Part shown: positions 12,130 through 50,244 of the stretch, piece by piece
Numbering within the stretch: position 1 is the first letter of the stretch
How the letters are laid out: the number at the start of each line of letters is the position of its first letter
From: Chaetoceros tenuissimus
Lineage: Eukaryota > Bacillariophyta > Thalassiosirophyceae > Chaetocerotales > Chaetocerotaceae
NCBI GenBank assembly: GCA_021927905.1
Contig: BLLK01000019.1
Location: 1,364,001 to 1,428,000, forward strand
Reading direction: 5' to 3'
Length of the DNA stretch: 64,000 bases
Made by a program: the position numbers and the translations under genes
The notes under the pieces: generated by a model
Told to the model about the DNA's origin: nothing
The model's input: only the letters and a program-made list of their open reading frames with translations
Databases searched by the model: none

Positions 12130-14672
12130 CTATTTGCGAATAGTTCTATATCTGAGCTGTCTTCCAGTGCCACCTTTTGAGCTACCCTTGGAGCTTCCTT
12201 TCGACAATCCTTTAGAAGATCCCTTACTTGACGGAGAAGTCGCTGGAACAGAAGCAGTTCCAGAAGGAGAAGGTGGATCAGGACTGGAAATTGGTTCAAT
12301 TAGGATTGCGCCAATATCACCTTCTGGACAATCTCTTTCTGCATTTTCACCACTTGCGAATCCACAGGCAACTGGACACAAAGATCCTACATCCGAAGCT
12401 TCTTCACAATTGGTACTTGAGAAGCAATAGTTGTTGCGCCGAGTGTCAATAGCTTGTTTGTTCTTTGTCAACCAATCGCATCCAACCATTTTGTCAATCT
12501 TATCTAGCTTGAATACACTATCACCACTTGCATCTTGGACATTACAAGCACCACATGACTCTTGACATGCGCTGTAGATATGAGTTTCTCCGCAGTATTT
12601 AGCCTTTCGCTTACCAGCATTGCTTTTGGTAAGCCAAGAACATGGAACTCTGTTGCCGATATCAAGTTTGAAAGTAAAGCCTGATGAATCAGTGCAGTCA
12701 TCTTCTGTAACGAGCCCATCGACATCAGCAGGAGGTTCAACAGGACTTGGAGTTGGTGATTTTGTTGGGGAGGTCGTTGGTGAGGCTGTTGGGGATTTTG
12801 TCGGGGCAGATGTTGGACTAACGCAACGATTAATGCTTTGGACAAAAGTAGTACCTGCTGGGCAATCGCAACTCTTGTTATTGGCGTTGTATTGGAAGGA
12901 GGTTTCACATTGACAGTAAGCTTCACCGCTTCCATCAATCTTGCATTCACTTCTCTTGCACTTGACAGAGTCACAAGGATCAGGTATAGACACAACAACT
13001 GGAGGAGTTGGAGTTCCAGTGCAAGTGAAGCTATTCTCATCTGTGGGATTTGTATATGGAACACATGTTTGACCAGCTGGGCAGTTATGATTTTGACAAG
13101 GATCGAGTACACAAGCTGATCCTGAATAGTCAGGAGCGCATTGATCGCAAGCAGCTCCAGCATAGTTCGGAGGGCATACATCGCAGTTTGCTCCTGTAAA
13201 GTTATTAATACAGGTATCGCAGTTAGTTCCTTCAAAGTTACTAGCACATTCGTCACAATCAGCTCCAGCATAGTTCGGAGGGCATACATCGCAGTTTGCT
13301 CCTGTAAAGTTATTAATACAGGTATCGCAGTTAGTTCCTTCAAAGTTACTAGCACATTTGTCGCAATCAGCTCCAGCAAAAGGGGCATCACATTGATCGC
13401 AGTTTGCTCCTGTAAAGTTATTAATACAGGTATCGCAGTTAGTTCCTTCAAAGTTACTAGCACATTTGTCGCAATCAGCTCCAGCAAAAGGGGCATCACA
13501 TTGATCGCAGTTTGCTCCTGTAAAGTTATTAATACAGGTATCGCAGTTAGTTCCTTCAAAGTTACTAGCACATTTGTCGCAATCAGCTCCAGCAAAAGGG
13601 GTATTACATTGATCGCAGTTTGCTCCTGTAAAGTTATTGATACAGGTATCGCAGTTAGTTCCTTCAAAGTTACTAGCACATTCGTCGCAATCAGCTTCAG
13701 CAAAAGGGGCATCACATTGATCGCAGTTTGCTCCTGTAAAGTTATTGATACAGGTATCGCAGTTAGTTCCTTCAAAGTTACTAGCACATTCGTCGCAATC
13801 GGCTCCTGCAAAAGGGGCATCACATTGATCGCAGTTTGCTCCTGTAAAGTTATTAATACAGGTATCGCAGTTAGTTCCTTCAAAGTTACTAGCACAATCG
13901 TCGCAATCAGCTCCAGCAAAAGGGGTATTACATTGATCGCAGTTTGCTCCTGTAAAGTTATTGATACAGGTATCGCAGTTAGTTCCTTCAAAGTTACTAG
14001 CGCATACGTCGCAAGTTTTGCCAGCGAAGCCAGTATCACAGACACATGTCCCAGTTGACAAGTCACATGTTCCATTGTCACAATCGTTATTTGAGGTGCA
14101 ATCAACTTTTTGGAGGAATAAGATGAGTACAAGTGAAGTGTTTCTTTTAGTTATTCAAGAAATTTACTTACCATTATTGCAAATAGGTAACCAAGAGTTT
14201 GCGGGCACAGTTGTTCCAGACCCAGTGACATGAACATATTTTCTTTCACTTCCGTTCCCTGTTTTAACGGCATAACATCCTGGTAGTGTAGTACCAGAGT
14301 CATCTGTCTCGAATACCGGATTTAAGTTTGGTAATTGTACATTAGAAATGCATTTATTTGCAACTTGGTGATCAAAGGCAGCTTGACAGCTTGTGACTAT
14401 CTCAGGCCCAGTACATGATGATTGTCCACCACCAGCACCTAGCGTTTTATAGAGTTTTTCATTTGCAGCACAAGAAGCCAACTTTCTTGACTCATGAAAA
14501 ATACTTCTTGCAATACCATCTAGTTGAGATCCAAATTGGGATGAGAAGACTTTCATTTTTGATAAAATAAAGATTTATTTTTCAAAGTTTAGAGATTTTG
14601 CTTACCATTTGCAGAATGAGCAAAACCTTTACTGACACAAAGTGCTACGAAAAGGGAGAAAGAGACCTTCAT
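12130..14672 (-). CDS. Secreted EGF-like repeat protein with Cys-Trp modules and Lys/Gly tail
   Basis: Three exons were read: 14672-14606, 14549-14172 and 14105-12130. All introns are phase 1 with GTAAG donors, giving 806 residues. Exon 1 encodes a signal peptide (M-K-V-S-F-S-L-F-V-A-L-C). Exon 2 is a Cys domain ending L-P-G-C-Y-A-V-K..N-G. Exon 3 holds eight 36-residue Cys repeats (residues 183-470), another Cys region, a P-T-K-S-P-T hinge, two Cys-Trp modules (C-S-W-L-T-K and C-D-W-L-T-K, each followed by an Arg-rich run and ending C-G-A-C or C-P-V-A-C-G-F), then S-S-K-G repeats and the tail R-Q-L-R-Y-R-T-I-R-K. The build suggests an extracellular wall, matrix or adhesion protein. Lys spaced every 3-4 residues recalls biosilica-associated proteins, but that is an inference. 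A paralog follows at 17962. Confidence 0.8.
13141..14004 (-). repeat. Eight 108-bp tandem repeats coding EGF-like units
   Basis: The unit is 36 residues: C-A-S-N-F-E-G-T-N-C-D-T-C-I-N-N-F-T-G-A, then N-C-D, a variable C-x-x-P-F/Y-A-G-A-D-C-D and one more residue. Eight copies run without a break. The first 23 residues are identical in all copies and nearly identical at DNA level. The second part varies between Q-C-D-A-P-F, Q-C-N-T-P-F and V-C-P-P-N-Y, so copies fall into subtypes. Because the unit is a multiple of three, all six frames stay open, producing long false frames on both strands. Confidence 0.95.
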
Positions 14673-33781: not shown

Positions 33782-36700
33782 TTAAAACCCATTTATAATG
33801 CACTTGCGAATTTTCTGCCAGATAGCCTGAAAACTCTCTGGAGGAGACGGTCCGCGCAAACTATTTATAGAGCTGATGGCTTTTTCTACGCTAGGACTTT
33901 TATTCGGCATGATGAGTAAGTCTCCTTTCAACGCATGTAGCTTCTCCCAAATAATACCCCACTTTTCTTGTAGGTCCTCTATTTCAAGTTCGGATAACTG
34001 GTCTAGCTCATCCATTACACCCATCAAATCATCAATAGATACTAGGACTTCATCCACTACTTGCACATTACTTCTTGTATCACTCGCTCTTCTTGCGGCA
34101 ATGTCGTGATTAGTCAATAGCTTAGGGAATCGAGCTAGCCATAAAGGAGCAAGAATTTCGAGAACCTGATCTTTCTTTACAGGCGCTTTCGCTAGGTAGC
34201 CATGAGCTCTTGCATTGTAAATAGCAACATCATTTGCAGAGTCATTTGCTGATCGAATCAATGCAAGCAACTTTCTCTCCTGATCCTGAAGCAATCTTTT
34301 TCTGATCTCGGCTACTGATGCTGATCCAGAAATAGTTGTTTGATTAGTATCAATTTGTTCATCTTGAACATCTAAATTCTCATCCACAACCATCAAGATG
34401 TAGTCATCGGGATGTTCTTCTATAAAGTCAACTGCCCAATCACAGAAACCTGTAATCTCTTCCGCAGTTTCCCCAATTATGTGAACTCTTTCACTTGGAA
34501 TTCCAGCAAACATGAGCAATCTACCAAGAAGTTTTCGTTGAATCTTGGAGTCATCGATGGCAAGTGCATGAATATTTGTAGGTAAAGTAAAGTCTTTGAA
34601 AGACATATCTGTATTTGCAACATTTTCATCGAATTGCTTCATAGGACAGGTCAAGGTAAAGACAGTTCGATCCTTTTCAAACTCAATTCCACAGTTTCCT
34701 CCAAGAGTCTTCGCGCATTTATGAATGATCCAGGCTCCGTCTCCAGATGAATGAGAGGCAGACACCTGATTATTATTGTCTTCTGTACAATGCATAGTCA
34801 ATCTTCTTCTAGGTGAAAATACAAGCTCTTTGGCAAGTTTACCAAGCTTCAAAATCTCACCATGCTTCTTCCCTGGAAGATTAATGATTTGCATTTGCAA
34901 TTCTCCATTCTCTTTACAGTACTTCAAGCAAGTTGTAACTTTACCACCCTTCTTTCCATACTTACATGCATTACTGACTGCATTTCTATGGATGCATTTG
35001 ATAAGCTGAGGATCTGTAGCAAATTCAGGTAACTCTTTGGGTTCCGTGAGAATAGGGAAGCGACGAGTACTGGATTTGCTTGCATTAATATTCATATTTT
35101 CAGCCAATAGCTTTGCGAGTTTAACTCTTTCTAGTTTCAATTCATACACCTCGTGAATCACATCTCTTGCCATCGCCTCTGCGAGAACAGTATCTAGAAT
35201 TTCATGTAGAGTTTTATCGAGTTCAAGAAGATACCGCTTGATGGAAGCGTCTTCAGGTGTTTCCAAGGACTGGATGGATTCAAGTTCATCACGTTCACTT
35301 GTATTTGCACTTGCATCTTCCTTTTTAAGACGAGGTGTGTCTTGAGGAAGCTCCATTCCATTCAACAGCAGCTGTCTACCTGAACTTTGACTGTTCATTC
35401 TCTTCAATTTTGCTTCAAATGACTCCACTCCTTCATTTAATGAATCACAGAGTCCAATTGCAGCTAGTAATCCATTCTTTACCTCGTGACGAGTGAATCT
35501 ATTAGCTGCTGCATCCTTAAGCCTAGCTGTGGTTTCACTAATGACTTTCTTCTCTGCCTCGAAACGTCTGAACCTTTCTGAAATATCTCTTACAACAATC
35601 ACCAAAGCATTTTCTTCAATTCGTGAGACATTTGCTTCGCACCTCATGATGGACTGTATCGACCCCGACTTGCCCACCAAATCATGCATGAGCATAGTTT
35701 TCCTAGCGGTAGTTCCCCAAGCACGAATCACTAAGCGGGCAATAGATCCAACCTCTTGCGTTTCAAGTTTTTCGCTCTTCTTACTCGAATAAGGTCTAGA
35801 TTGAAATGGCATCTTATCGCGAAAATGCAAATCGTAAACATTGCTAGGGACAATGTCATCATCTACTTCACCAGCGAAATATCTAGCATCTAATTCAAAG
35901 GCCAATGCCGATCCTTGCTTTTTGGAGGACTCAATAATATTATCATCATCATTTTCTCCTTTGGAGTAAAGCTTCATTAGAGTTGGACTGAGCATGGTTG
36001 TTACATCTCCTGAAACTCCACGTACAGAGATTCCAATTACATCAGAACTATTATCCCATACCACCGAAAGCATCTGCCTTAGTTCTTCCAATCTACGTTC
36101 TGCTCTTGCACTTGGATCAAAGATGGTATCGTGGACATCAATGACAATCTAAAGAAAAAAGAATTAGAAATGAGATCGTCTCTCTAATCAATCCATATCA
36201 CACAGAATCTCATTACTCACCAACAAGTAAATTGCTTTGAACACAACATCTAAAGTACTCTCAAGTAACATACTCAAACCATGGCTCTTCAGAATCTCGG
36301 CGTTTGGCAGCAAAACAGGTCCAAAGTTGGTGACGAAAAAGACAAAGACCAAGATGGACCAAACATAAGAACACGTTTTCAAAAGCCCGAGGGAAAGTTT
36401 ACTCCAAGCATACATTTCCTGTTCAGAAACAGTAGACCCCATTTTCATCTTTTCAAACTCTTCCATTCTAACAAACAACCGCTTCCATAGACATGAAAAC
36501 AAGGAACAAGAAATAGTCAAAGTAAAAAGCCATACAAAAATATTCGGACAGAATGGAAACAACCATCCACAAAAGGTAGAAGCTCCCTGTGTAATTGCCA
36601 AAAAGTATGCCGATCTGAGTCTTTTGTTGACTTTATCCTTGAGTGAAGTTTTCATCACATTCATCATGTAGGATTTATCCATAAATTTCACCTTTTCACC

Positions 36701-38026
36701 TGGATCATTTTCAGAAGATGGGATCGTATCCGGAAAGACATCATCCATTTGTGCATTAGGTTTCGAAGCAATGGTTCCCATGAGCAATGCCAATTTTCCA
36801 GCATCACCTGGTGTCACGTCGGATTTATTATCAATTCTACACGATTCAGTGAGGAATGCCATTACAAATGAAAGTGGTGTCCATTCACAATAACGTAGTA
36901 GGTAAACTTGTGCACCAGTGATTTTATCCGTAAAGACTGGAGTTGGAAAGTGTGCCAGCTAGTGAAGAGAAAAAGAGGGTGAGTTGGTTGATGAGAAAAG
37001 AATTGAAAACATAGACACTGTAGTGTAAAACTGTATGTCTTTTGATAAACACACTCGTGAGCTTAAGCTCACTCGGAAAGACACTGTAGTATACTACTGT
37101 CAATCTCATTGAAACACACTCGTGAGCTAAAGCTCACTCGGAAAGACACTGTAGTATACTATTGTCCATCTCATTGAAACACACTCGTGAGCTGAAGCTC
37201 ACTCGAGTGAAACGCACTCGTGAGCTAAAGCTCACTCGGAAAGACAGCGCTCACTCCGCTACGCTCGTTCGCGTCTGCTCGCTGCTCACTCCGCTACGCT
37301 CCGTTCGCATAGCTCGCTGACGCTCGCCCACATCGTACTCACCATAATATCCGTAATCAAAGCCAAACTCTGAACCAAAACAGCACAAACAATGACACCA
37401 CTCAAACACCTTTTATTCCCCCTGACAAAAAGCGGCAAAATACAACTAATCAAACTCATACCAAGCAATAAACTCGCCAACATGGGCGCTTTCCTCTCCA
37501 TCCCATCCAAAGTCCTCAAAGCATCATACTTTTTCCCCACCATGAAACTAACACACATTAAAGACAAATAAATGATGACTGCATAGAAGGCTACATTGAG
37601 ATAATGTCTATCAACTTCTGCAATGAATTCATCCGCGTAGAGTGTTTTATTTTCCGATTTTTTGGACATGTTTTCTACTTCATCAATGGTTTCTTCGTGA
37701 TTGACGCTGTATTTTCTTCTAGGTTTTGTAGTAGATGATGATGTATCTTCTTCTTGAGTGTCGGTAGTTTCTTCCTTTTGTTTGACAGCTGTATCAGGAG
37801 TTTGAAAATCAAATTTGACTTGTGTTTGTGTCGGAGTGACGAGTGATGGTTCTTTTGTGTCATCTTTTGTTTCAGATGGTAAAGGTTCAGGAATGAGACG
37901 AGGTTCCTCTTTTGTTTGTTCCTCTTTAGTTGGTACTTCATCTTCTGGACGAACAAAGACTTCATCTTCTTCCATTGGAAATTCGACTTTGATTGCCGAG
38001 AAGGAAGAATCTTGTTCTTGAGACAT
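33782..38026 (-). CDS. Eight-helix rhodopsin-histidine kinase with receiver and HPt domains
   Basis: Three exons (38026-37343, 36958-36221, 36148-33782), all phase 0 with GTGAGT donors and TAG acceptors, give 1262 residues. Residues 1-140 are acidic and disordered. Helices lie near 142-164, 180-201, 207-228, 246-266, 344-364, 367-388, 417-440 and 452-477. Helix C has R250-Y-C-E253-W254-T-P, matching bacteriorhodopsin R82-Y-x-D85-W86, with Glu as counter-ion as in channelrhodopsins. The last helix has L-D465-V-V-F-K469, matching L-D212-V-S-A-K216 around the retinal lysine. Helix F keeps W-S but lacks the usual Pro. Positive residues fit N-in topology, as in eight-helix enzyme rhodopsins. Then come a PAS-like region, a kinase H-box (R-H695-E-V-K-N), an ATPase N-box (H-R-N-A-V-S-N-A), a receiver (D1006-D1007, D1063, K1128) and an HPt (H1212-A-L-K-G). 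A light-controlled phosphorelay is inferred. Confidence 0.8.
37014..37255 (-). repeat. 65-bp palindrome-bearing repeats inside the rhodopsin-kinase intron
   Basis: Copies start at 37047, 37112, 37177 and 37210, after a decayed partial copy at about 37014. The first two are full (65 bp, about 95% alike); the last two are cut short. Each holds the near-palindrome CGTGAGCT-(A/T/G)A-AGCTCACTCG, able to form a hairpin, and full copies also hold GTAGTATAC. They lie wholly within intron 1 (36959-37342, 384 bp, against 72 bp for intron 2). Confidence 0.9.
37248..37330 (-). repeat. GC-rich repeat patch in the same intron
   Basis: GCTCACTCCGCTACGCTC occurs at about 37250 and again at about 37283, each followed by GTTCGC with small differences. 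The patch is far more GC-rich than its surroundings and sits just inside the intron donor. It may have grown from the GCTCACTC part of the neighbouring repeat. Confidence 0.7.
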
Positions 38027-45347: not shown

Positions 45348-47288
45348 ATGGAAACCAAAAAACAAGATGCATCCGAAAAGAAAAGTACCATAGTCCAACA
45401 TGCTATAGAAATGGCTGGTGTAGATGCATACGGAGTCATCGGTGTAGACGTATGGCTTTTCAATCAAGAGACAAATAAGCTTTCACATTATGGTCAGCCA
45501 AAAGGTATGAGTTGGATGTGTCCAATCTACAAACGTCAGGCTATTCACCAGAGTAAAAAAGAACAGAAACATGACGTAATTAATGCTATCGAAGAATTGG
45601 ACACACATGTTGAAGCTGCAGAAGATGAAGTCGTTGGTCAAGGCTTAGCTGGTAACTTTTATCAAATGTATGGACCTTCTGTCGTTCCTAGACGTGTGAA
45701 TGCCCTAGGATCAAATCTTCGCCGCTCTAGCGTCGTTTCTATGAAAGCTACTAGTATCCGTAACTTGGATGTCAGTAATCATCGATCAACCAGAAACTTG
45801 GATGTCAGCAATCATCGATCAAATATGTTCTCGAAGCATGGTACTCTAATGTTTAATCATGATATCGAATGGCATGATTTGAGAGACTTTACTACAAATC
45901 CTTTCCAAATGCCTAGCAACAGACTTCAACTTCTTGCAAAGGTATTTGGAAGGGCTACAGGTATCCCTTTTAATATTGAAGGTGACTACAAGGGAGTCGT
46001 CGTTTTCTTTGCAAGAAGAAATTTTGATCAAGAAGGAGTGAACTCGGATGAAAATCTTTCGTATTTGAAGTATGCTACACAGAGTATCGGTTCCAACATT
46101 GCAGTAGAACAAGCTCGTGACGAAGCTATGAAGAAACGCAAGGTCAAAGTTCAAAAAGCATTTCGCAAAGCCAAAGTCGCCTTTCAAGCAATCAGTGCTC
46201 TTGAGGGTGAATTTATGCGTCAGCTAAGTGACAGAGGAATGAACCAAATTGAAGACATTGCTGATAAAAAAAGCAGTTCTTACAGACGCTCTATTAAATC
46301 TTCCTCTAGTTGCTGTGATAATACAATGAAATTTATGCGAGATGCAAAACAGCAAACACATGATAAGGTCAAAAATACCACCAAGAAATCTTTCAACCCT
46401 CCATTAAAGATACCATCTGCAGCTACTACTTGGCAAGTTGCATTCTGGATTACATGTTCTTGCTTTGTAGCATTTACAACTATTCTTGGTATGAACAATG
46501 CAATCAGAAAGTCCACAGGCAATGACTATGGCTTCTTTGCAGGACCGTTCGGAGCATTGATTACTCTACAGTTTGCTTTGACGGCAGCTCCTCCAGCACA
46601 GCCACGAAATTGTTTGTATGGTATGACATTGAGTCTCTTTATCTCGATATGTGGCAAGTATTTGTTATCATTCCAAGCTGGCATTCCACAATGGGTCGTG
46701 GCATCGATCTGTACCTCGATAGCTATTGGTGCAATGGCGAAAACTTCTACAGTCCATCCGCCAGCTGGTGCAACAGCCATTGTTTTCTCTCTTACTCCCA
46801 TCAAAACAATTGTGAACGACTTGGCAGTTGCTGGCTTGATGCTTGTTGCAAGTATCGTATCCATAATGATTGCAACAGTGTTGAATAACTCCAATGACTT
46901 GCGTCAATACCCAATGTATCCAATTTTTCATTCCAAGGATACGGGAGACAAGAAAGATGAGAAAAAGAAGAAATCGTTCTGCGATGTTCTCAATAGTGCA
47001 TTCACAATTTCGTTTGAAAAGAAAAGTCAAGACAGTGTTGTTGAGTTCAATAGCTCTCCTGTCAAAGTCAATGGCCGAAAGACTACCTTACGTTCCAATC
47101 CTGGTACTTATGGCGCTGTATCTCAGAAAGAAGGAGATGTCGAAGAGCAGAGGCAGAGGCAACTTGTACGAACCGCTAGCAAAGTCAACTTTGAAAAATT
47201 GTACAAGGAGGCAAATACTTTTGGTGGGAAAAAGAATTCATCTGCGAATAAGAATGCGGAGGAATTGCCTGTTCAATTCCTAGGATGA
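45348..47288 (+). CDS. GAF-like plus HPP-family membrane protein
   Basis: The protein has 646 residues. Residues 20-270 look like a GAF-type sensor domain: A-Y-G-V-I-G-V-D-V-W-L-F, later G-V-V-V-F-F-A-R-R-N-F and Y-A-T-Q-S-I-G-S-N-I-A. A basic linker follows. Then comes an HPP domain (about 360-510) with four to five helices and the signatures A-G-P-F-G-A-L-I-T-L-Q, P-P-A-Q-P-R-N and T-V-H-P-P-A-G-A-T-A. HPP proteins in cyanobacteria and plant plastids have been linked to nitrite transport. The C-terminal tail is Lys-rich and probably cytosolic. A soluble sensor in front of the transporter is unusual and may gate it. No plastid leader is evident. It is intronless. A paralog lies at 48462. Confidence 0.8.
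   Translation: METKKQDASEKKSTIVQHAIEMAGVDAYGVIGVDVWLFNQETNKLSHYGQPKGMSWMCPIYKRQAIHQSKKEQKHDVINAIEELDTHVEAAEDEVVGQGLAGNFYQMYGPSVVPRRVNALGSNLRRSSVVSMKATSIRNLDVSNHRSTRNLDVSNHRSNMFSKHGTLMFNHDIEWHDLRDFTTNPFQMPSNRLQLLAKVFGRATGIPFNIEGDYKGVVVFFARRNFDQEGVNSDENLSYLKYATQSIGSNIAVEQARDEAMKKRKVKVQKAFRKAKVAFQAISALEGEFMRQLSDRGMNQIEDIADKKSSSYRRSIKSSSSCCDNTMKFMRDAKQQTHDKVKNTTKKSFNPPLKIPSAATTWQVAFWITCSCFVAFTTILGMNNAIRKSTGNDYGFFAGPFGALITLQFALTAAPPAQPRNCLYGMTLSLFISICGKYLLSFQAGIPQWVVASICTSIAIGAMAKTSTVHPPAGATAIVFSLTPIKTIVNDLAVAGLMLVASIVSIMIATVLNNSNDLRQYPMYPIFHSKDTGDKKDEKKKKSFCDVLNSAFTISFEKKSQDSVVEFNSSPVKVNGRKTTLRSNPGTYGAVSQKEGDVEEQRQRQLVRTASKVNFEKLYKEANTFGGKKNSSANKNAEELPVQFLG
45760..45825 (+). repeat. 33-bp in-frame tandem duplication in the HPP gene
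   Basis: Two copies encode R-N-L-D-V-S-N-H-R-S-T/N, 11 residues each, in a loop of the GAF-like domain. The paralog at 48462 lacks this loop, so it is a recent local expansion. Confidence 0.85.
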
Positions 47289-48461: not shown

Positions 48462-50244
48462 ATGCGCTTGATTCAAAAATTGGCTGAATCTTCATCTTGC
48501 AAATCTCTCAAGTCTTGTACCATTTCTGCAGGGTCTTCCATCATCAACACTAGTAGTAAGGATAGCAACTCTGATATTGTATCTACACCGCTTCTCCAAA
48601 AGAAAAGAAACACTTCTCAATACAACTCGACTTTAAATTCTAAAATGAGTCGAAGAAAAGCATACAATAAATCATCCACTACAGGTTCTTCTGCAATTTC
48701 ATCCGATATTGAAAGTGGAAGATCACTTACCATCATCAACGAACAACAAAGTTCTTCTCTACAATTGACAGACGATGCTTTGATTCAGCATGCAATCAAT
48801 ATGGCGGGTCAGGATGCATTTGGAATCATTGGAGTAGACCTATGGGTTCTTTCTCAAGAATCTGGTAAACTCTCACATTTTGGAAAAGCGGGCTTGAATT
48901 GGATGTGTCCAATATACAAACGACAATTGGAAGATGAACGGAATCATCAAGCTTTAGATGCTCTTGAGGATTTGTATCATGATTCTAGAGTACAAGATGA
49001 GATTGTAGGTCAAGGTCTTGCCGGTAACTTTTATCAAATTTATGGTCCGACCGCTAGTTCATCGGCGAATTTAAATCATAAATTGACCTGGCATGATTTG
49101 CGAGAATTTACAACCAATCCTTTTCAAATGCCTAGTCAGCGAATGATGTTGTTGGAAAAGGTGTTTGGGAAAGCTACCGGTATTCCTTTTAATGTTTTGG
49201 GAAGGTTCAAGGGTGTAGTTGTGTATTATGTTCGTAAAAAGTATGATGAAGTTGGTGTGAATTCGGATGCCAATACTGCGTACATGCATTTTGCAGCTGA
49301 AAATATTGGATCTGTTGCTGCCATGGCGGAAACAAGACGAGATGCAATTGCAAGACGAAAGGAAAAAGTGGATGGAGCTATTCGGCGATTCAAATTGGCA
49401 CTGAAGACCATGGATGCATTTCAGAATGTAGCAGCGGAAGAGCCTTCTGACAAGGATGAACACTTTCAAGACGACGACGATAATATTGATTACAAACCTT
49501 CGTCTACTTCCATTTTGGACAAGTTCATGCGAAGACTGACTCTTGCTGGGGTAGAATTGAAACGCAAAGCTAGAGCCAAAGCCAAGCAACTCAAAGAAAA
49601 ATCACTCAATCCTCCTCTGGATGCTCCACCGTCTACCTCTTGGAGTATCGCAGCAACAACGACTCTTTCTTGTTTCATTGCTTTCCTCGCCATTCTTGGT
49701 ATGAATCAAGGAATCAAACATGCAACGAATAACGATTACAGTATCATTCTTGGACCATTTGGAGCATTAATCACGTTGCAGTATGCACTTACTGCGGCTC
49801 CGCCTTCTCAACCTTCAAATTGTGTCTTTGGAATGATTACATGCTTAGCTGTTCCTTTCCTAGTCAAGACATTATTGTATGAATTGGCAGGTATGCCACA
49901 ATGGGTCGTTGCTTGTATTGGTACCTCTCTGGCGATTGGAACCATGTGTAAAATGGGTACAGTTCATCCTCGTAAGTGCCATGGAACACTCTGCATTCAT
50001 GATTACTCATATTTCTTACTTATCCCTTTTCTTATTCTTTACAGCGGCTGGAGCAACAGCAATTGTATTTTCCATGAGCAATAGAGGATTTACAAAAGAT
50101 ATTGCCTTAGCTGGATTAATGTTGGCAGCTGATGTAGTAGCTGTCATTTTAGCAATCATTTTGAACAACTCTGATGATACAAAGCAATATCCAATGTATC
50201 CAATGTGGCATTTGGGTAAACCTCCAAAAGGATTCAATAAATAA
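48462..50244 (+). CDS. GAF-like plus HPP-family membrane protein, second copy
   Basis: Two exons, 48462-49971 and 50045-50244, join in phase 1 inside the signature H-P-P-A-G-A-T-A (C + CG), giving 569 residues. Without splicing the frame would run past the signature and end early. Layout matches the first copy: Ser/Lys-rich N-terminus of about 100 residues, GAF-like domain (A-F-G-I-I-G-V-D-L-W-V-L, K-G-V-V-V-Y-Y-V-R-K-K-Y), linker, HPP helices (L-G-P-F-G-A-L-I-T-L-Q-Y-A-L-T-A-A-P-P-S-Q-P) and M-Y-P-M-W-H near the end. It lacks the long Lys-rich tail of the first copy. The start could also be an ATG at 48642. It is a likely anion (perhaps nitrite) transporter by family. Confidence 0.8.

Follow-up and report, generated by a model that had tools for sequence, protein, structure and literature searches.

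Does a diatom possess a rhodopsin that passes its signal to a histidine kinase within the same chain? The question is raised by the 64,000-nucleotide stretch of Chaetoceros tenuissimus DNA analysed here (the window; contig BLLK01000019.1, positions 1,364,001 to 1,428,000), whose minus strand carries at 33782..38026 three open frames that a sequence-only reading had joined into one protein. The reading we favour, with a probability of about 0.75, is that the product of this gene is a retinal light sensor: a microbial-type rhodopsin of eight helices, joined in one chain to a hybrid histidine kinase with its own histidine phosphotransfer (HPt) domain. An invariant candidate retinal lysine (K469), a fold match to a known rhodopsin and conserved relay residues, judged from alignments and predicted structures, support the earlier proposal of a light sensor feeding a phosphorelay that ends in its own HPt domain.

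One gene in three exons

The gene and its parts are as follows; the helix borders were taken from the AlphaFold model of a relative (P0015) and transferred via the alignment.

33782..38026, minus strand: whole gene, three exons, 1,262-residue rhodopsin / PAS-like / histidine kinase / receiver / HPt protein (splicing and translation, homologs)
37343..38026, minus strand: exon 1, residues 1-228, with an acidic N-terminal tail (1-143), the extra helix TM0, helix A and most of helix B (splicing and translation, P0015 model)
36959..37342, minus strand: intron 1, 384 nt, GTGAGT...CTAG, containing a 65-nt tandem repeat (relatives without a break there)
36221..36958, minus strand: exon 2, residues 229-474, covering helices C to G after the last part of helix B (splicing and translation)
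36149..36220, minus strand: intron 2, 72 nt, GTGAGT...TTAG (splicing and translation)
33782..36148, minus strand: exon 3, residues 475-1262 and stop, with the end of helix G, a charged helix, the PAS-like region, the dimerisation and histidine phosphotransfer (DHp) domain, the ATP-binding (CA) domain, the receiver and the HPt domain (splicing, model of the relative P0001)

Both GT-AG introns are of phase 0 and contain stops, and the spliced product reads through 1,262 codons to a single stop at its end, in agreement with the single protein of about 1262 residues first proposed. Translation also bore out the motifs of the earlier reading and gave their places: RYCEWTP from 250, W-S at 428-429, LDVVFK from 464, HEVKN from 695 and the N-box asparagine N867, followed by D1006/D1007, D1063 and K1128 of the receiver, to which S1107 is added, and by HALKG from 1212.

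The exons could instead be three independent genes wrongly joined, since the junctions of the window gene are predicted from sequence. Its relatives argue against this. In the alignment of 14, residues 228/229 and 474/475 are gap-free in P0001 and P0003, which have MMETSP transcript names and are marked complete; P0014 and P0015, predicted on contigs, run uninterrupted through both intron positions, as does L022, a paralog found in the DNA of the same genome (41,027,912 bases in 68 contigs). The introns themselves, with their GTGAGT donors, common phase and internal stops, speak the same way, and we regard a wrong joining as practically negligible.

Intron 1 contains repeats at 37047-37205 and 37182-37238, built on the 65-nt tandem unit. 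An exact search for the repeat core, CACTCGTGAGCTNAAGCTCACTCG, finds it 47 times in the genome, spread over many contigs and frequently grouped in small sets at intervals of 65-67 nt; the reversed CACTCGTGAGCTNAAGCTCACTCG pattern has no match. The repeat is a minisatellite scattered through the genome that has also become established in this intron.

The membrane domain

37535..37600, minus strand: TM0, extra N-terminal helix, about residues 143-164 (P0015 model; alignments with rhodopsin phosphodiesterase, Rh-PDE, start before helix A)
36875..36895, minus strand: helix C motif R250-Y-C-E253-W254-T-P256, E253 at the place of D85 of bacteriorhodopsin (BR) and E164 of Rh-PDE (alignment)
36248..36250, minus strand: D465, predicted counterion, at the place of BR D212 and Rh-PDE D292 (alignment)
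36236..36238, minus strand: K469 of helix G, the lysine predicted to form the Schiff base with retinal, at the place of Rh-PDE K296 (24/24 sequences)

The best match to the window family, by sequence profile and by fold, is the Rh-PDE of Salpingoeca rosetta (7CJ3/7D7Q), which the family profile finds at E = 2.3e-4. Structural alignment of the P0015 model revealed a bacteriorhodopsin-type seven-helix fold, in which K469 and Rh-PDE K296 both lie 14 residues from the end of the alignment; the claim of a rhodopsin-like fold with K469 as its lysine was supported. The claim of eight hydrophobic helices fared unevenly: all eight are present in the P0015 model, but a hydropathy scan of the window protein at a cut-off of 1.4 yielded six peaks only. 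TM0 of the model aligns to Rh-PDE from model residue 120 and chain residue 49, and because of this match we place the N-terminus inside the cell; the TM0-A loop has five lysines and arginines, and loop charges do not discriminate the side. Together the modelled structure and its match support a type 1 rhodopsin with an eight-helix layout including TM0 and with both termini inside.

R250, W254, P256 and K469 are invariant in the 24 sequences, beyond what chance would produce. E253 is kept in 23 of them (threonine in P0012) and D465 in 22 (asparagine in P0005, glutamate in P0012), while position 251 is tyrosine in 12 members and tryptophan in the other 12. From these letters, retinal is predicted to bind at K469. 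According to the accessible part of PMC7644710, Rh-PDE resembles the window protein in having eight helices with TM0, termini inside, a glutamate in helix C and an aspartate four residues before the lysine; there the aspartate is the counterion and the glutamate stays protonated, and by analogy the same is expected of D465 and E253. The two proteins differ in their output (phosphodiesterase versus kinase, receiver and HPt), share 14% identity in the structural alignment, and part in helix C, where Rh-PDE has E-W-I-I-T-C-P, its proline six residues after the glutamate, whereas the window family has E-W-T-P, with an invariant proline three residues after it. They also differ in the C-D loop, which spans about 70 residues in most window-family members, is nearly missing in P0012 and P0013, and is poorly ordered at 263-293 of the P0015 model. 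Bestrhodopsin (7PL9) was matched by profile weakly and below significance (E = 0.23 and 0.37), in the stretch formed by the B-C loop and R-Y-M-E-W-T. Bestrhodopsins are rhodopsins fused to a bestrophin channel, unlike the window protein.

An ion pump or channel with an attached kinase would have the same fold, which is that of bacteriorhodopsin. However, position 264, at the place of the BR proton donor D96, is leucine, methionine or valine in 24/24 sequences, which makes pumping unlikely, and position 257, at the place of T89, is leucine or cysteine (for both positions the BR numbers were obtained by counting onwards from the acid of helix C). Of the two differences thought by PMC7644710 to rule out transport by Rh-PDE, moreover, one is the protonated glutamate at the same place. 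We consider a pump or channel extremely unlikely.

From the PAS-like region to the phosphotransfer domain

35579..36043, minus strand: PAS-like domain, about residues 510-664, ending in VVRDISER, the least certain domain assignment (P0001 model, Foldseek)
35486..35488, minus strand: H695, predicted phospho-acceptor histidine in the H-box RHEVKN (16/16 readable members)
34631..35149, minus strand: CA domain, about residues 808-980, with N867 of the N-box, N897-x-P-G and the G2 box G943-D-G-A-W (alignment, profiles, Foldseek)
34136..34570, minus strand: receiver, about residues 1001-1145, with D1006, D1007, D1063, S1107 and K1128 (motifs, P0001 model)
33785..34048, minus strand: HPt four-helix domain, about residues 1175-1262, with H1212 in HALKG (motifs, P0001 model)

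Helix G is followed directly by a charged helix (about residues 480-503) and then by a putative PAS-like domain, which the sequence-only reading had overlooked and which became visible in the P0001 model (mean pLDDT, the predicted local distance difference test score, 64). Residues 454-606 of that model, corresponding to about 511-662 of the window protein, form strands 454-460 and 466-471, a helix at 548-563 and strands 568-578, 583-595 and 599-606, with pLDDT of about 33-84. With the full model, the top Foldseek matches were the PAS- or LOV-linked kinases WalK, VicK and YF1 (a LOV kinase), at large root-mean-square deviation and with no ranges given for the PAS-like region; the window protein differs from them by its integral rhodopsin sensor. 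A sequence profile of the region gave no significant match in the PDB (best E = 0.96). A Pfam match to NagA_C in the same region, in one of 11 sequences (E = 6.4e-4), was judged spurious.

Among the kinase boxes, the H-E-x-K-N letters, with H695, are identical in 16/16 readable rows and G943-D-G is present in 16/16 readable members. Of the 17 rows that have a residue at 867, 16 carry N867 and the last is truncated (the counts at 867 and 870 include chance-aligned letters of truncated rows). HATPase_c is picked up in 13 of the 14 members when E values up to 10 are admitted, the lowest being 1.1e-5, and twelve NCBIfam kinase profiles match the window protein at E up to 1, all under their cut-offs, EvgS among them at E = 0.0015. 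Further on, D1007, D1063, S1107 and K1128 are kept in 10/10 readable rows, D1006 in 9/10 and H1212 in 9/10 (methionine in P0012), and the P0001 model has four HPt helices at 1081-1163. The HPt domain is reached by 8 of the 14 alignment rows, the other six breaking off within the CA domain or shortly past it; a receiver/HPt profile from those eight, with the six truncated rows left out, gave no significant match in the PDB (best E = 0.49, at the first receiver motif). ArcB and EvgS, tripartite hybrid kinases, have the same His-Asp-His order, and the receiver and HPt sequences of the window protein are far diverged from those of this type.

Under the reading we favour, retinal would sit on K469, with D465 as its likely counterion and E253 beside it. 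Light would move the helices, and the change would travel from helix G through the short charged helix and the PAS-like relay to the dimerisation helices, where autophosphorylation of H695, presumably from ATP, would be altered by light, whether upwards or downwards. The phosphate would pass from H695 to D1063 of the receiver, then to H1212 of the HPt domain and, because this domain is internal, on to separate response regulators. Seven receiver-domain matches in the genome are possible takers of that phosphate. The strongest is L025 (minus-strand open reading frame 1081-2331), a possible candidate for a relay partner; its receiver is preceded by a long N-terminal extension, and its tail resembles by eye a LuxR-type helix-turn-helix. 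The Hpt family search of the genome gave a single match, L032, below cut-off (E = 0.009).

Several observations weigh against this reading, and two other explanations draw on them. A first group concerns the ATP-binding part: the G1 box reads N-L-P-G, its N897-x-P-G pattern standing in 16/16 members in place of the expected D-x-G-x-G, and HATPase_c in the window protein (E = 0.0016, 19.3 bits) falls below the Pfam cut-off of 26.4. The protein could then be a retinal light sensor with a degenerate ATP-binding part, unable to phosphorylate itself and acting as a light-gated phosphatase or as a scaffold for another relay. An asparagine in G1 is tolerated by some active kinases, which counts against that explanation, as do the conserved H695-E-V-K-N, N867 and G943-D-G and the acceptor residues kept in the receiver and HPt domains, for which a dead kinase would have no need. 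On the other side, a Micromonas rhodopsin-kinase variant lacking the ATPase domain is on record (PMC12704426, in the part available). We hold this explanation to be unlikely. The receiver and HPt assignments, for their part, come from motifs and a model of middling confidence.

A second group concerns the chromophore. Pfam barely detects the opsin: scans gave nothing above cut-off for an opsin domain in the window protein or its relatives, and Bac_rhodopsin (PF01036) was listed for only one of 14 members, at E = 0.68. Searching the genome with PF01036 produced no match, and control genomes were equally silent, which makes that search uninformative. The places of BR T89 and T90 hold L257 and S258, whereas most kinase rhodopsins tabulated in PMC7693036 have threonine. 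At five places the genome encodes RPE65-family carotenoid oxygenases (six matches, one gene accounting for two), a possible source of retinal, although enzymes of this family do not necessarily make it. Finally, P0012, the one relative assigned to a named organism (Seminavis robusta), keeps the lysine, with T replacing E253, E replacing D465 and M replacing H1212; its sequence suggests that its chromophore chemistry may have changed and that the final step of the relay may be lost. The faint Pfam recognition and the losses in P0012 would suit a rhodopsin-derived membrane kinase that no longer uses retinal, answers to another input and keeps K469 for another reason, all the more as retinal binding is a prediction. 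Yet K469 stands in 24/24 sequences, the divergent P0012 included, and an acid at 465 in 23/24, as a Schiff base needs, and we judge the loss of retinal very unlikely.

Relatives, known kinase rhodopsins and the rest of the window

A protein search with the window chain found 13 proteins at E <= 0.001, the closest being P0001 (59% identity, with 90% of the query covered). When the alignment was used as query, 21 proteins were found; the eight new ones, P0014 and P0015 among them, cover 28-36% of the query, namely the membrane half. These eight break off soon after ...RLEE(L/M)xQVS, probably by read-through into an intron. In the genome itself, searches with P0015 and with exon 3 recovered the window gene and two others: L022 (C33:1093000-1099500; 1,252 residues, three introns) and L023 (C21:694800-701000; 1,372 residues, five introns), their GT-AG introns having been chosen to keep the frame. 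In both, the helix C motif reads R-W-C-E-W-T-P and the lysine motif D-V-x-F/Y-K, H-E-V-K-N and H-A-L-K-G are retained together with the receiver motifs, and no intron position coincides exactly across the three paralogs. Among viral contigs, 14 stretches fitted the search pattern and none was a relative. The one relative from 60 pattern-fitting prokaryote stretches, in Hahella (L024), was set aside as a 38-residue kinase piece with general kinase similarity.

In a tree built on the membrane region of 24 sequences, each of the three paralogs has a group of its own, shared with sequences from other sources, which suggests, without proving it, that the duplications are older than C. tenuissimus. 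Ultrafast bootstrap values on the forks separating the paralogs are 83-94, none reaching the 95/80 mark; 8 of the 21 inner branches are well supported overall, and P0012 and P0013 are long branches whose placement is unsafe. The three groups, together with the even split between tyrosine and tryptophan at 251, make it possible that the paralogs are tuned to different colours or depths. On this basis we propose, at somewhat less than even odds, an old multi-gene diatom family of retinal-based phosphorelay photoreceptors, three of them in this genome, so tuned and feeding a common HPt/response-regulator pathway with no cyclic nucleotide step.

Histidine-kinase rhodopsins (HKRs), Rh-PDEs and rhodopsin guanylyl cyclases (Rh-GCs) are the enzyme rhodopsin families of a 2025 review of algal photoreceptors (PMC12558739). 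Many green algae, a GtRh-labelled set and others have kinase rhodopsins that include a receiver; some of these also carry a cyclase, and the cyclase-free forms are common (PMC7693036). Those of green algae and cryptophytes were compared with the window protein through published descriptions and tables. The cyclase-free forms (Ostreococcus OtRh/OlRh, Micromonas, GtRh4-8) likewise combine rhodopsin, kinase and response regulator in one chain, and the Ostreococcus proteins have E, L, D and K at BR positions 85, 96, 212 and 216, as the window protein does (PMC7693036, accessible tables); because of these four shared places, common descent is possible. By contrast, the window protein has an HPt and a putative PAS-like domain, and the terms HPt, phosphotransfer, PAS domain and diatom have no occurrence in PMC7693036; for O. 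tauri a separate HPt protein has been proposed, versus the built-in one here (PMC12704426, available part). The two-component cyclase opsins (2c-Cyclops) of Chlamydomonas and Volvox, related to HKR1/Cop5, also have an eight-helix opsin with cytosolic termini, then a histidine kinase and response regulator, and that of Chlamydomonas is light-inhibited (PMC6284317, available part). They carry a cyclase domain, whereas the window chain ends in receiver and HPt and its Pfam scan lists no cyclase family up to E = 10, so it is not a 2c-Cyclop.

The literature searched, which covered part of the field (preprints and most subscription papers lying outside), describes no diatom histidine-kinase rhodopsin, and the earlier statement that no diatom protein with this domain order is known still holds within that coverage. 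None of the 12 diatom passages considered, of 25 in the review, mentions HKRs. A diatom rhodopsin that has been described, the xanthorhodopsin FcR1 of Fragilariopsis, plastid-localized according to the title of its paper, was tested as a proton pump, and that paper contains no 'histidine kinase' (PMC10627834), whereas the window protein is a probable kinase rhodopsin. Relative to the descriptions of kinase rhodopsins consulted, the diatom host, the putative PAS-like relay and the terminal HPt would be new.

Diatoms are among the most prominent primary producers of the ocean (PMC8613185), and the light sensors named for them in the texts consulted include aureochromes, cryptochromes and phytochromes, alongside the xanthorhodopsin tested as a pump (PMC12558739, PMC10627834, PMC10662239). 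If our reading is correct, they would gain a probable blue-green light input, a colour suggested by Rh-PDE and by the Ostreococcus kinase rhodopsins, which are regarded as green-light sensors (PMC12704426, PMC10662239). Enzymerhodopsins would then extend to diatoms, with a sensory rhodopsin on a full His-Asp-His relay, and the built-in phosphotransfer domain makes an optogenetic part conceivable.

Elsewhere in the window, GC content per 2-kb block is 34-44%. Two adjoining plus-strand open reading frames, 45348-47288 and 48462-50084, both have a TM_HPP membrane domain and are perhaps a local duplicate, and the open reading frame 12130-14061, in a more GC-rich stretch, has a laminin-EGF match (E = 1.6e-29).

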